Below the pieces are notes generated by a model that worked only from the letters and a program-made list of their open reading frames with translations, did not search any database and was not told the DNA's origin. A program made the position numbers and the translations under genes. Below are positions 2,043 to 27,056 of a stretch of 45,584 nt of DNA, in pieces. This DNA is from Hyphomicrobiaceae bacterium (GTDB lineage Bacteria > Pseudomonadota > Alphaproteobacteria > Rhizobiales > Xanthobacteraceae): assembly GCA_021324465.1 (NCBI GenBank), contig JAJPJB010000006.1:1-45584 (forward strand), written 5' to 3'. Each line of letters begins with the position of its first letter. The first letter of the stretch is position 1.

Positions 2043-2790
<748 letters not shown>

Positions 2791-2792
<2 letters not shown>

Positions 2793-2969
2793 GATAGGAC
2801 CGCTCCGCTCATGATAGGCCCGCTCCGCTCATGGTAGGCCCGCTCCGCTCATGGTAGGCCCGCTCCGCTCATGGCAGGCCCGCTCCGCTCATGGTAGGCC
2901 CGCTCCGCTCATGGTAGGCCCGCTCCGCTCATGGCAGGCCCGCTCCGCTCATGGTAGGCCCGCTCCGCC
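2791..2969 (-). repeat. Tandem 20-bp repeat forming a chain of ATGA-overlapping micro-ORFs
   Basis: Nearly nine copies of a 20-base unit, on the minus strand ATGAGCGGAGCGGGCCTACC with small variations. Every unit starts an eight-codon micro-ORF (MSGAGLP-stop or close variant) whose TGA overlaps the next unit's ATG. Starts lie at 2952, 2932, 2912, 2892, 2872, 2852, 2832 and 2812, and the last stop overlaps the livF start at 2792. The stop of livMG (2949-2951) overlaps the first micro-ORF start in the same way, and the last residues of LivMG (GGAGLP) are encoded by a partial unit. Each unit offers GGAG about 10 bases before the next ATG. The likely origin is duplication of an ancestral livG-livF stop/start junction. 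Confidence 0.95.
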
Positions 2970-24119: not shown

Positions 24120-25577
24120 ATGCGCTCACTGCGGACCAGACTGCTCGCGCTCTGGCTGATGCTCGCGCTCTCGGGCACGGTCAGCGGCCTGCTGCTGGTC
24201 GAGCTATACCGGCAATCGACCAACGCGCAGGTGGCACGTGCCGAAGATATGGTCGCGCGCGCCTGCCGCGAGCTTGCCGCCCGCTATCGATCCGTCGCAG
24301 CGGGGTGGCACGACGTCGGAGATGATGGGCGCAAAAGCGAGCTCGTCGCGGCGGTGCAAACAGCGCTCGGCCCATCGCCCGGCGTCGAAGGCGGCATCTG
24401 GCAAGCCGATACCGGTTCGCTGGCCTATGCGTTTCCGACCTATGAGGGCAGCGGACCGAAGACCGATTTGCCGGTCACCGAGCTTCCGACCATCAGGCGG
24501 GTCAATGCCGATGTGCTGCGCGAGGATCGCCCGGTGACGGTGCACATGGTCGGGCGGTCGCAGGTCGAGATCGTCCACGCCTGCCCGCTGCATGGGCCGG
24601 TTGCCGGCGCGACGGCATGGACCATGATGCGCGCCTTCACCGGCGCGAGCCGCGCCTACAATCAACTTCTGATCGGACTAGCCGTGCTGGCGGCCACGGT
24701 ATTCGGCTCAGCCGCCTGGCTCGGCGGCATTCTTTATCTCTGGTCGCGCCGGATCGGTCGGCTGGAATTCGAGCTGGCCGGACGCGATGCGGGCGCCGGC
24801 GATTTCCCCGCGCTGACGCGAACCGGAGAACGCGAGCTCGACCGGCTGGTGGATACGCTCAATGCCGCGGGCGCGCGGCTCGCGCATGAACGGCGTCGCG
24901 CCAGCGCGGCCGAGCGCCTGGCGGCCGTCGGACGGCTCGCCGCCGGCTTTGCGCATGAAATTCGCAACCCGATCGCCGCCATGCGGCTGAAGGCGGAAAA
25001 CGCACTGGCGATCGATGATGACGGACGCCGCGCCGCCGCCCTGCAGTTCATCTTGCAACAAGTGGGACGGCTCGACGGGTTGTTGCGCGATCTTTTGGCA
25101 ATGACCCAACAGCGCAAGCCAAAACCCGCGCCAATCGACCTTGCCGCGTTTCTGGAGAAGACCGTGCAGGCGCATCGCGAGCTCGCCGCCGGCAAGAACG
25201 TGAAGCTCGCGGTCGCACCGGCGCCGCCGGCAATGCCACCGCCTGAATTCGACGCCGAGCAGATGCATCGCGCTCTTGATAATCTCATCTTGAATGCGAT
25301 CGAGAATGCGCCTGCGGGAGGCTCGATAGCAGTAGCAGCACACTATAGCGTCGGCGCCTTGCACCTGCGCGTGCGCGACACCGGGCCGGGCGTTGCGGAT
25401 GACATTCGCGAGCGAGTGTTCGAGCCGTTTGTCACCGGACGCAGCGAGGGAACGGGTCTAGGCTTAGCGGTAGTGCGCGAAATTGCCCGCGCGCATGGCG
25501 GGGAAGCGCGGCTTCTGCCGACGGATCATGGCGCCGAATTCGAAATCGAGCTGCCACTATCGAGCTGGCATCACTGA
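24120..25577 (+). CDS. Sensor histidine kinase, NtrB/ZraS-like
   Basis: A 485-residue membrane kinase. Helix 1 (~8-28, LLALWLMLALSGTVSGLLL) and helix 2 (~183-207) frame a periplasmic sensor domain of about 150 residues. The H-box is GFAHEIRNPIAAMRL with phospho-acceptor His ~281. The ATPase part has N-box DNLILNAIENAP (~387), G1 DTGPGVADDIRE, F-box VFEPFVTGRSEGTG and G2 GTGLGLAVV (~444). It should phosphorylate the NtrC-type regulator encoded next. The signal is unknown; it may relate to the transporters downstream. The ATG follows CAT in GCCATATG without a strong ribosome site. A tandem repeat separates it from the regulator gene. Confidence 0.92.
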   Translation: MRSLRTRLLALWLMLALSGTVSGLLLVELYRQSTNAQVARAEDMVARACRELAARYRSVAAGWHDVGDDGRKSELVAAVQTALGPSPGVEGGIWQADTGSLAYAFPTYEGSGPKTDLPVTELPTIRRVNADVLREDRPVTVHMVGRSQVEIVHACPLHGPVAGATAWTMMRAFTGASRAYNQLLIGLAVLAATVFGSAAWLGGILYLWSRRIGRLEFELAGRDAGAGDFPALTRTGERELDRLVDTLNAAGARLAHERRRASAAERLAAVGRLAAGFAHEIRNPIAAMRLKAENALAIDDDGRRAAALQFILQQVGRLDGLLRDLLAMTQQRKPKPAPIDLAAFLEKTVQAHRELAAGKNVKLAVAPAPPAMPPPEFDAEQMHRALDNLILNAIENAPAGGSIAVAAHYSVGALHLRVRDTGPGVADDIRERVFEPFVTGRSEGTGLGLAVVREIARAHGGEARLLPTDHGAEFEIELPLSSWHH

Positions 25578-25590
25578 GGTCTGCGTCCCC

Positions 25591-25685
25591 ATCGAGGTTT
25601 CATGATCCAGGTTTCATGATCGAGGTTTCATGATCCAGGTTTCATGATCGAGGTTTCATGATCGAGGTTTCATGATCGAGGTTTC
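25591..25685 (+). repeat. Tandem 14-bp repeat forming a chain of ATGA-overlapping micro-ORFs
   Basis: Six full copies of ATGATCGAGGTTTC (25602, 25616, 25630, 25644, 25658, 25672; two read CCAGG for CGAGG) plus a partial copy at 25591-25601. Each unit begins a micro-ORF of five codons (MIEVS or MIQVS) whose TGA overlaps the next ATG as ATGA. Each also places GAGG four bases before the next ATG, ending with the true start of the response regulator at 25686. The last unit's frame runs on, since ATGG replaces ATGA, and stops at 25699-25701 inside the regulator gene. The layout parallels the unrelated repeat at 2791-2969. Confidence 0.95.
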
Positions 25686-27056
25686 ATGGCAAACGTCCTG
25701 ATTGTAGATGACGATGCGGCCTTGCGCGAGGGGCTCGCCGAGACCGTCGCTGATCTCGGGTATTCGCCGCGCCTTGCCGCGTCCGGTCGCGAGGCGCTCG
25801 CGGCGCTTTCGGCCGATGACATCGGCTGCGTGCTGCTCGATCTGCGCATGCCGGGCGGAATGGACGGCATGGAGGTGCTTCGCTGCATCCGGCAGCAGCG
25901 CGATGCCCCGCCGGTGATCGTGCTGACAGCCTTTGCGACCGCGGAGAACACGATCGAAGCGATGCGGCTTGGCGCCTTCGACCATCTGACAAAACCGATC
26001 GGTCGCCTCGAACTCGACGCCCTGCTGAAGCGGCTGCCGCAGCGTGGCACCGCACCTTCGGTGCAGGAGGGCGCAGAGAGCGGCACGCTGATCGGCGCAA
26101 GCGAAGCGATGCGCCGCGTGCAGAAGACGATCGGACTGGCGGCCGATAGCGACGCGACCGTGCTGATTCTGGGCGAGACGGGGACGGGCAAAGAAGTCGT
26201 TGCCCGCGCGCTGCACCAACACGGCGCCCGCAAAGCGAAGCCTTTCATTGCGGTCAACTGCGCCGCCATACCGGCGGAGCTTCTCGAGAGCGAGCTGTTC
26301 GGACATGTCAAAGGCTCCTTCACCGGTGCGACTGCCGACCGCGCCGGGGCGTTCCGTGCGGCAGCGGCCGGCACGCTGTTTCTCGACGAAATCGGCGACA
26401 TGCCGACGACGATGCAGAGCAAGATCCTGCGCGCCATCGAAGAGCGCCTCGTCACGCCGGTTGGCGGCAAGCCCTGCCGCTTCGACGCCCGTCTTGTCGC
26501 GGCGACGCACCGCGATCTGCCGAGCCTGGTCGCGAGCGGCGAGTTCCGCGAGGACCTCTACTATCGTCTCAACGTGGTGCCGATTGCGCTGCCGCCGCTG
26601 CGCGAGCGACGCGAAGATATCTTGCCGCTTGCGGAGCATTTTTTGCGCGTCGAGGCCCGGCACGGCGCGCCCAAGCGCCTCAGCGCGCCGGCCGCGGCTT
26701 TGCTTGAACAGCATTCTTGGCCCGGCAATATCCGCGAACTGCGCAATGTGATCGCGCGGGCCTGCGTCTTGGTGCGCGGCGACACGATCGCGGCGAGCGA
26801 TCTCGACATTGCCCGATCATCGGACGTTCCCTCGCGCGACGACCTTTTGCAAGGCGATTTGCCGTCCGCCGTCGCCAAGCTCGAAGCGGCCATGATCCGC
26901 AAGGCGCTCGCAGCCTGCGGCGGCAATCGCGCCGAAGCCGCGCGCCGCCTCAACATCAATCGGCAGCTGCTTTACGCCAAGATGCAACGCTACGGGATTG
27001 TCGAGCCCGCAGCGTCCGCAAAGCAGACACCGCCTGTCGGAAAAGCCGACGGCTGA
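25686..27056 (+). CDS. NtrC-family sigma-54-dependent response regulator
   Basis: A 456-residue enhancer-binding regulator with three domains. The receiver (~1-120) starts NVLIVDDDAALREG, has the phospho-acceptor Asp in LLDLRMPGG (~54) and the lysine in HLTKPIG. The AAA+ domain (~140-370) has Walker A GETGTGKE (~163-170), the sigma-54 contact loop GSFTGA (~210, with Ser for the usual Ala), Walker B TLFLDEIGDMP and the sensor region REDLYYRLNVVPI. The C-terminal Fis-type helix-turn-helix is NRAEAARRLNINRQLLYAKM. It should be phosphorylated by the kinase upstream and activate the sigma-54 promoter found 45 bases after its stop. Start supported by the GAGG in the repeat. Confidence 0.94.
   Translation: MANVLIVDDDAALREGLAETVADLGYSPRLAASGREALAALSADDIGCVLLDLRMPGGMDGMEVLRCIRQQRDAPPVIVLTAFATAENTIEAMRLGAFDHLTKPIGRLELDALLKRLPQRGTAPSVQEGAESGTLIGASEAMRRVQKTIGLAADSDATVLILGETGTGKEVVARALHQHGARKAKPFIAVNCAAIPAELLESELFGHVKGSFTGATADRAGAFRAAAAGTLFLDEIGDMPTTMQSKILRAIEERLVTPVGGKPCRFDARLVAATHRDLPSLVASGEFREDLYYRLNVVPIALPPLRERREDILPLAEHFLRVEARHGAPKRLSAPAAALLEQHSWPGNIRELRNVIARACVLVRGDTIAASDLDIARSSDVPSRDDLLQGDLPSAVAKLEAAMIRKALAACGGNRAEAARRLNINRQLLYAKMQRYGIVEPAASAKQTPPVGKADG

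Follow-up and report, generated by a model that had tools for sequence, protein, structure and literature searches.

Tandem micro-ORFs between a histidine kinase gene and an NtrC-type regulator gene, and the recurrence of their unit-length rule in arrays ending on gene starts in related genomes

In this study, we analyzed the junction between a sensor histidine kinase gene and an NtrC-type response regulator gene in a window of 45,584 nt (the whole stretch of DNA considered here) and determined that the tandem array lying at that junction is real, partly as first described, and more general than could be read from a single window. The rule that it follows, an ATGA in each unit and a unit length of 2 mod 3, holds for arrays that end on gene starts across the 258 genomes of the family that were surveyed, and does not extend to repeats, or to upstream ATGs, at large. 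Our main reading, to which we assign a probability of roughly 0.6, is that the array would be a serial termination-reinitiation relay that originated by tandem duplication of an old kinase/regulator overlap and tolerates changes in copy number. The features on which this reading is based are as follows.

24120..25577, + strand: sensor histidine kinase gene with HisKA and HATPase_c domains (ORF call; Pfam)
25545..25572, + strand: the 14-nt unit in two older, degenerate copies, in phase, within the 3' end of the kinase gene (unit similarity)
25591..25688, + strand: tandem array of seven 14-nt units, ATCGAGGTTTCATG (TRF)
25602..25619, + strand: micro-ORF 1, MIQVS and stop
25616..25633, + strand: micro-ORF 2, MIEVS and stop
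25630..25647, + strand: micro-ORF 3, MIQVS and stop
25644..25661, + strand: micro-ORF 4, MIEVS and stop
25658..25675, + strand: micro-ORF 5, MIEVS and stop
25672..25701, + strand: micro-ORF 6, MIEVSWQTS and stop, with a 16-nt overlap into the regulator like that of the kinase in the relative G138
25686..27056, + strand: NtrC-type response regulator gene with receiver, sigma-54 interaction and Fis-type HTH domains (ORF call; Pfam)
2789..2968, − strand: liv-junction array of 9 x 20 nt with eight micro-ORFs (MSGAGLP, MSGAGLS or MSGAVLS, each followed by a stop), unrelated in sequence and the same in architecture

The array at the kinase/regulator junction has a 14-bp unit in 7.0 copies with 95% matches (TRF score 182), the last copy leading into the start of the regulator, and a search of the whole 4.57-Mb genome with this stretch returned a single match, namely itself. 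A preliminary description of this DNA had counted six units, two of them with CCAGG; the array and the two variants (ATCCAGG..., units 2 and 4) are confirmed, whereas the number of copies is seven. There are six micro-starts (25602, 25616, 25630, 25644, 25658 and 25672) ahead of the regulator ATG at 25686. The description of each unit as encoding MIEVS or MIQVS, with a TGA overlapping the next ATG, is accurate for micro-ORFs 1–5, whose TGA shares an ATGA with the following start (5 of 6 links), and fails for the sixth, which has its stop at 25701, 16 nt inside the regulator, so that the last link is without an ATGA. Similarly, the GAGG that had been placed four bases before each ATG is found there for five of the seven ATGs, and CAGG occupies this position at the other two. 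The kinase stop ends at 25577 and the first micro-ATG is 24 nt downstream, and because of that gap entry from the kinase is not an overlap. The 4-nt stop/start overlap of ATGA coupling is thus present at five of six micro-ORF ends here and at all eight in the liv array, and absent at both the kinase entry and the regulator exit.

In having tandem units the array agrees with a minisatellite (VNTR). It is not a phase-variable repeat, in which gain or loss of units switches the frame of a gene: the number of units leaves the frame of the regulator unchanged, because the regulator ATG is located past the array and, with ATGA overlaps and 14-nt steps, every internal start terminates at the following one.

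In the second array of the window, which opens livF, all eight micro-ORFs end on the following ATG and the first ATG lies at −4 on the upstream stop. Its origin looks similar to that of the kinase/regulator array: the closest liv pair in each of 13 congeners simply has the common ATGA, but these pairs may be paralogs since the closest LivF in the 13 congeners is only 61–66% identical and the window's own genome has a second pair that is equally close (L362). The earlier view that the two arrays are independent and have no sequence in common was borne out, each array resembling its own local junction.

To follow the architecture through the family, the 258 genomes were surveyed for four exact ATGAs at one fixed spacing of 13, 14, 15, 16, 17 or 20 nt, a pattern whose chance expectation is ~1.5e-4 per 4.6-Mb genome at any one spacing. 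It matched 7, 25, 61, 5, 11 and 3 genomes, respectively. Arrays are thus rare (25 of 258 genomes at 14 nt). Every array at 13, 14, 16 and 17 nt was then read (7, 32, 6 and 12 arrays) and scored as gene-opening if its last, or next in-register, ATG was a predicted gene start, or if its last ATG opened an ORF of at least 100 codons with a coding score; gene starts were taken from our own hexamer predictor trained on the genome of the window. One 16-nt array (L306) was scored as gene-opening with the start one unit past its last ATGA, and the same rule was applied to the array of the window.

The gene-opening arrays numbered 1 of 7 at 13 nt, 25 of 32 at 14 nt, 1 of 6 at 16 nt and 8 of 12 at 17 nt, whereas the non-opening arrays were about evenly spread over these lengths (6, 7, 5 and 4). 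The lengths of 2 mod 3 therefore differ clearly from those of 1 mod 3 (33/44 versus 2/13, Fisher p = 1.8e-4). The difference persisted in a stricter count of predicted starts only (26/44 versus 1/13, p = 1.2e-3), as well as after three orthologous g65 arrays were reduced to one and a contig-end repeat (L230) was removed (31/41 versus 2/13, p = 1.8e-4). In addition, the first ATG lies at −4 on the stop of an upstream gene in 13 of the 44 arrays at 14 and 17 nt, 12 of these 13 being gene-opening as well, compared with 0 of 13 at 13 and 16 nt. The common rule put forward in the preliminary description, of an ATGA per unit, a length of 2 mod 3 and a gene start, thus recurs far beyond chance. Ten of the 33 gene-opening arrays at 14 and 17 nt have no close upstream co-directional predicted gene and for that reason cannot couple two genes.

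Lengths of 15 nt were left out as a control as 26 of the 30 arrays read overlap predicted coding sequence. The three 20-nt arrays are the window's liv array, one that opens a 327-codon ORF on one strand and one from which no ORF of 100 codons starts. Of the 224 other genomes of the class, beyond the family, 10 carry 14-nt arrays, and an ORF of at least 100 codons is opened at 5 of the 15 loci read. L249 is an exception to the frame rule: alone among the 13-nt arrays, it has a long ORF (435 codons) starting at its last ATG. Two 15-nt ATGA arrays, L258 and L281, start at −4 on the upstream gene and run in frame toward the downstream gene, which is the outcome for 0 mod 3, a repeated N-terminal stretch.

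A mirror pattern, AGTA, matched 3, 13, 7, 4, 0 and 0 genomes at 13, 14, 15, 16, 17 and 20 nt (counted by eye). Since it matches 13 genomes at 14 nt, against 25 for ATGA, tandem arrays as such are common, and we took the position of an array, not its presence, as the evidence. The scan of the genome and its relatives that had been proposed as a check gave a divided answer, favorable for arrays that end on starts and unfavorable for repeats in general. Within a 1.79-Mb sample of the window's own genome, tandem repeats outside predicted genes have no excess of remainder 2 over remainder 1 (104, 51 and 55 for remainders 0, 1 and 2), and a unit-length rule for intergenic repeats at large was abandoned. 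Single upstream ATGAs before 430 genes that start with ATGA likewise have no frame excess (23, 26 and 28 for remainders 0, 1 and 2). Three equally spaced ATGAs at 8–60 nt gave 31 rows in the own-genome sample, and the gene-opening ones numbered 3, 2 and 1 for remainders 2, 1 and 0; the two remainder-1 rows are the window's own arrays, read at twice their unit length.

Several other repeats were observed in the own genome. Two strong 13-nt intergenic arrays of 7 and 8.5 copies (L179:1555-1645 on C49 and L181:674-784 on C51) do not end on a gene start. A 15/29-nt array, CGGCACATGGGCGGG, at L118:4201-4290 (C7) extends up to the start predicted for a long gene on the minus strand, whose product it would lengthen at the N terminus if read in frame. 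Perfect 5-nt repeats at contig ends (CACCT at L181:1-71, AAGCT at L196:1-45 and AGCTT at L198:1-45) are probably assembly ends.

The position statistics of the family survey suggest that ribosomes re-initiate on the micro-starts. We regard this as the best explanation because a duplicated ATGA junction leaves both genes whole at any unit length, yet the arrays opening genes are almost exclusively of 2 mod 3. In the proposed relay, a ribosome terminating at one TGA would re-initiate on the overlapping ATG, make five residues and terminate again, and the chain would bring it to the gene whatever the copy number. With a unit of 2 mod 3, every re-initiating ribosome would terminate on the next start, making the number of units irrelevant to the frame; a unit of 1 mod 3 would make it skip alternate starts, and one of 0 mod 3 would let it continue in frame. 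Arrays of such other lengths, with ribosomes out of frame or skipping starts, would presumably be removed by selection. At the kinase/regulator junction, ribosomes probably enter either by initiating afresh at the GAGG of unit 1 or through weak coupling over the 24-nt gap, and exit is probably by a short backward re-initiation into the regulator, as in the ancestral 16-nt overlap. The entry gap, the last link without an ATGA and the two of seven starts without GAGG count against the reading at this array. In the available text of earlier work, 13 of 14 tested overlapping pairs were strictly coupled (PMC6728339), the last 15 nt of the upstream gene sufficed for coupling, and distances of ~20 nt almost abolished it in six tested pairs (PMC10666635).

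A further step, which we offer tentatively and consider rather doubtful, is that tandem micro-ORF relays would be an evolvable translational rheostat by which the ratio of operon partners, such as kinase and regulator, is tuned in small steps through copy number. Slippage would then add or remove whole links without breaking the frame, and each link would lose (or add) a share of the ribosomes. For this locus, the relay may set the kinase-to-regulator ratio, as the preliminary description proposed, and copy number may tune regulator output in either direction.

It is unlikely, in our estimation, that the micro-ORFs are untranslated and the array is an ordinary minisatellite, produced by replication slippage and tolerated at an ATGA junction, where duplications would persist since both genes remain intact; the 2-mod-3 pattern would then come from the mode of duplication or from the gene-start calls. 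Tandem repeats of many lengths do occur outside genes in the own genome, the alternation of G and C variants over units 1–4 is what slippage by 28 nt would produce, and the AGTA pattern finds arrays too. However, the equal frequency of non-opening arrays at 13, 14, 16 and 17 nt indicates that slippage has no length bias, and, as a duplication spares both genes at any length, gene-opening arrays of 13 and 16 nt should without translation be as common as the others, and not be distributed as 1, 25, 1 and 8.

A row of Shine-Dalgarno sites that holds or concentrates 30S subunits close to where the regulator begins, with peptides and overlaps as mere by-products, seems to us very unlikely. It would fit the GAGG before five of the seven ATGs in the window, and across the survey SD-like motifs are somewhat more common in gene-opening than in non-opening arrays (on average 60% versus 41% of units for a 3-letter motif and 28% versus 17% for a 4-letter motif). 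These averages also indicate that a ribosome site inside each unit, as first proposed, is not a constant feature. Many gene-opening arrays are without SD-like motifs, and landing sites would require neither an ATGA nor a fixed frame. Least probable of all is control of the regulator by a regulatory element in the DNA or RNA, such as protein-binding sites, a promoter or an RNA structure. The location between kinase and regulator would suit one, as would the separate expression of regX3 that mycobacterial interspersed repeats between senX3 and regX3 are described as driving in the available text of PMC4213456, but in scans of the junction neither promoter-like nor terminator-like sites were found, folding was not in excess (z = 0.83) and there was no Rfam match above the gathering score, and arrays in other species have only the ATGA and the length in common, not their sequence.

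The origin of the array was traced through the relative G138, the sole kinase match at E <= 1e-60 in a protein search of 118 other family genomes (66% identical). Its junction is without an array: the kinase ends ATC GAG CTG CCA TGG CGA CCA TCC TGA, with the regulator ATG inside and an overlap of 16 nt, an overlap that is retained in the window by micro-ORF 6 and the regulator. The 14-nt unit resembles the kinase codons for IELP and the regulator start codon of G138, and is identical to that junction, ATCGAGCTGCCATG, at 11 of 14 positions; no 14-mer of the window outside the array scores 11/14 against it. The degenerate copies at 25545-25572 match the unit at 9 and 10 of 14 positions and the G138 junction at 12 of 14 each, and no adjacent pair like them was found elsewhere in the window. 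Because the unit is 11/14 of the ancestral kinase-end/regulator-start junction, the array appears to have arisen by local tandem duplication of that junction. No array precedes the regulator in its three nearest named relatives (Methylobacterium, 63–65% identical), and when the kinase-regulator pair was used as a DNA query against 60 relatives, only partial matches were listed, nearly all within the conserved regulator domain.

Variation in copy number was seen at one g65 junction, sought by flank similarity in 14 genomes and found whole in five. The unit is present three times in three species and once in two, all 16 ATGAs are intact, and unit positions 6, 9 and 11–14 vary. The two one-unit species are free of the selection imposed by our survey pattern, since one unit cannot match it. 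Spacers were more diverged in gene-opening 2-mod-3 arrays than in non-opening arrays (median identity 0.74 versus 0.92, 31 versus 21 arrays, p = 0.016), both groups having been picked by four intact ATGAs; two of the three orthologous g65 arrays and L230 were omitted, and gene-opening 13- and 16-nt arrays are in neither group. Spacer identity was below 0.6 in 4 of the 31 and 3 of the 21 arrays, respectively.

Among known systems, the mycobacterial interspersed repetitive units (MIRUs) are the closest to the array of the window, as those at senX3-regX3 are also short tandem repeats between a histidine kinase and a regulator (PMC4213456). As far as the available text goes, MIRUs insert at start codons and carry an ORF with −4 coupling to the gene that follows (PMC12548453), and by our computation their reported unit lengths of 77 and 53 bp (PMC4213456) are both 2 mod 3. 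Coupling at −4 is seen between units here and in the liv array, while neither outer end of the window's array is at −4 and family-wide 13 of the 44 arrays at 14 and 17 nt start at −4. MIRUs, however, appear mobile and lie at many places, whereas the window's unit is 14 bp, derived locally and different at every junction, with dispersed homologous copies lacking from its own genome, where its single match is itself.

The ATGA-overlapping pairs of E. coli and Haloferax have the same −4 overlap as each link of an array (PMC6728339, PMC10666635), but theirs is one link between two genes, and the arrays chain up to nine starts via peptides of five to seven codons. The minigene mg2 upstream of the txe toxin gene resembles the arrays in being a tiny cis-acting ORF for which reading frame and distance matter; unlike them, it is of two codons and in single copy, and the available text proposes an action via mRNA stability (PMC8708949). 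Synthetic bicistronic-design leaders embody the idea of a short leader ORF delivering a ribosome to a gene (PMC12548453, as far as its text was available), whereas the arrays are natural, in series and variable in copy number. Lastly, the intergenic TAACTGA direct repeats of Beggiatoaceae are short, tandem and just 5' of start codons, with a possible translational role (PMC4679880), but in the text available are one fixed 7-nt sequence with no start codon and no chain of ORFs. We found no report of locally derived tandem micro-ORF chains in the open-licence literature, which is weak evidence of absence.

The frame-restricted arrays would be evidence, drawn from sequence only, that ribosomes can re-initiate several times running through ORFs of about five codons. 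With their one to eight links, they provide natural series in which re-initiation could be measured link by link, they let one ask whether copy number tunes protein ratios, and they illustrate how a spacer may grow inside an operon without uncoupling its genes.

The genes opened by arrays are unrelated to one another, based on Pfam analysis of 18 (the window's regulator excluded, and one being without a match). They include those for a prephenate dehydratase, UbiA, a CDP-alcohol phosphatidyltransferase, a DNA polymerase III alpha-type protein, SfsA, AMP-binding enzymes, an MFS transporter, an ABC permease, a Smr-domain protein and a glycosyltransferase, among others, and the arrays of other species have no common sequence, only the ATGA and the length. 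An independent parallel to the kinase/regulator array of the window is present in another genus (L375:2088-2147 in G083), where four 14-nt units, linked at −4 on either side, stand between a KdpD-like kinase gene (Usp, DUF4118 and GAF domains) and a response regulator gene behind it, a KdpD/KdpE-like pair.

Seventeen array genes were sought in the own-genome sample, and six were matched near the N terminus. One match (L164:5468-5538, C34) has two 35-nt ATGA steps of unrelated sequence before the gene, while three identical 14-nt units are found at the relative of this gene in G001 (72% identical), and the match to the UbiA-type gene (L145) is preceded by an 11-nt ATGA step; no ATGA steps were seen before the other four. 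Two more 14-nt arrays were observed in the own genome. At L134:12614-12669 (C1), four copies of AGGAAATGACTTGC end with a micro-ORF, MTCASGRATCASDWTVQ and stop, in GTGA, which could start a 512-codon ORF and make this a possible relay with a GTG start, our own predictor placing the gene start further in. At L372 (C32:26300-30400), on the minus strand, three units of the ATGAGCAAGCGG type end on the start of a FAD-binding oxidoreductase gene and make up a further putative relay.
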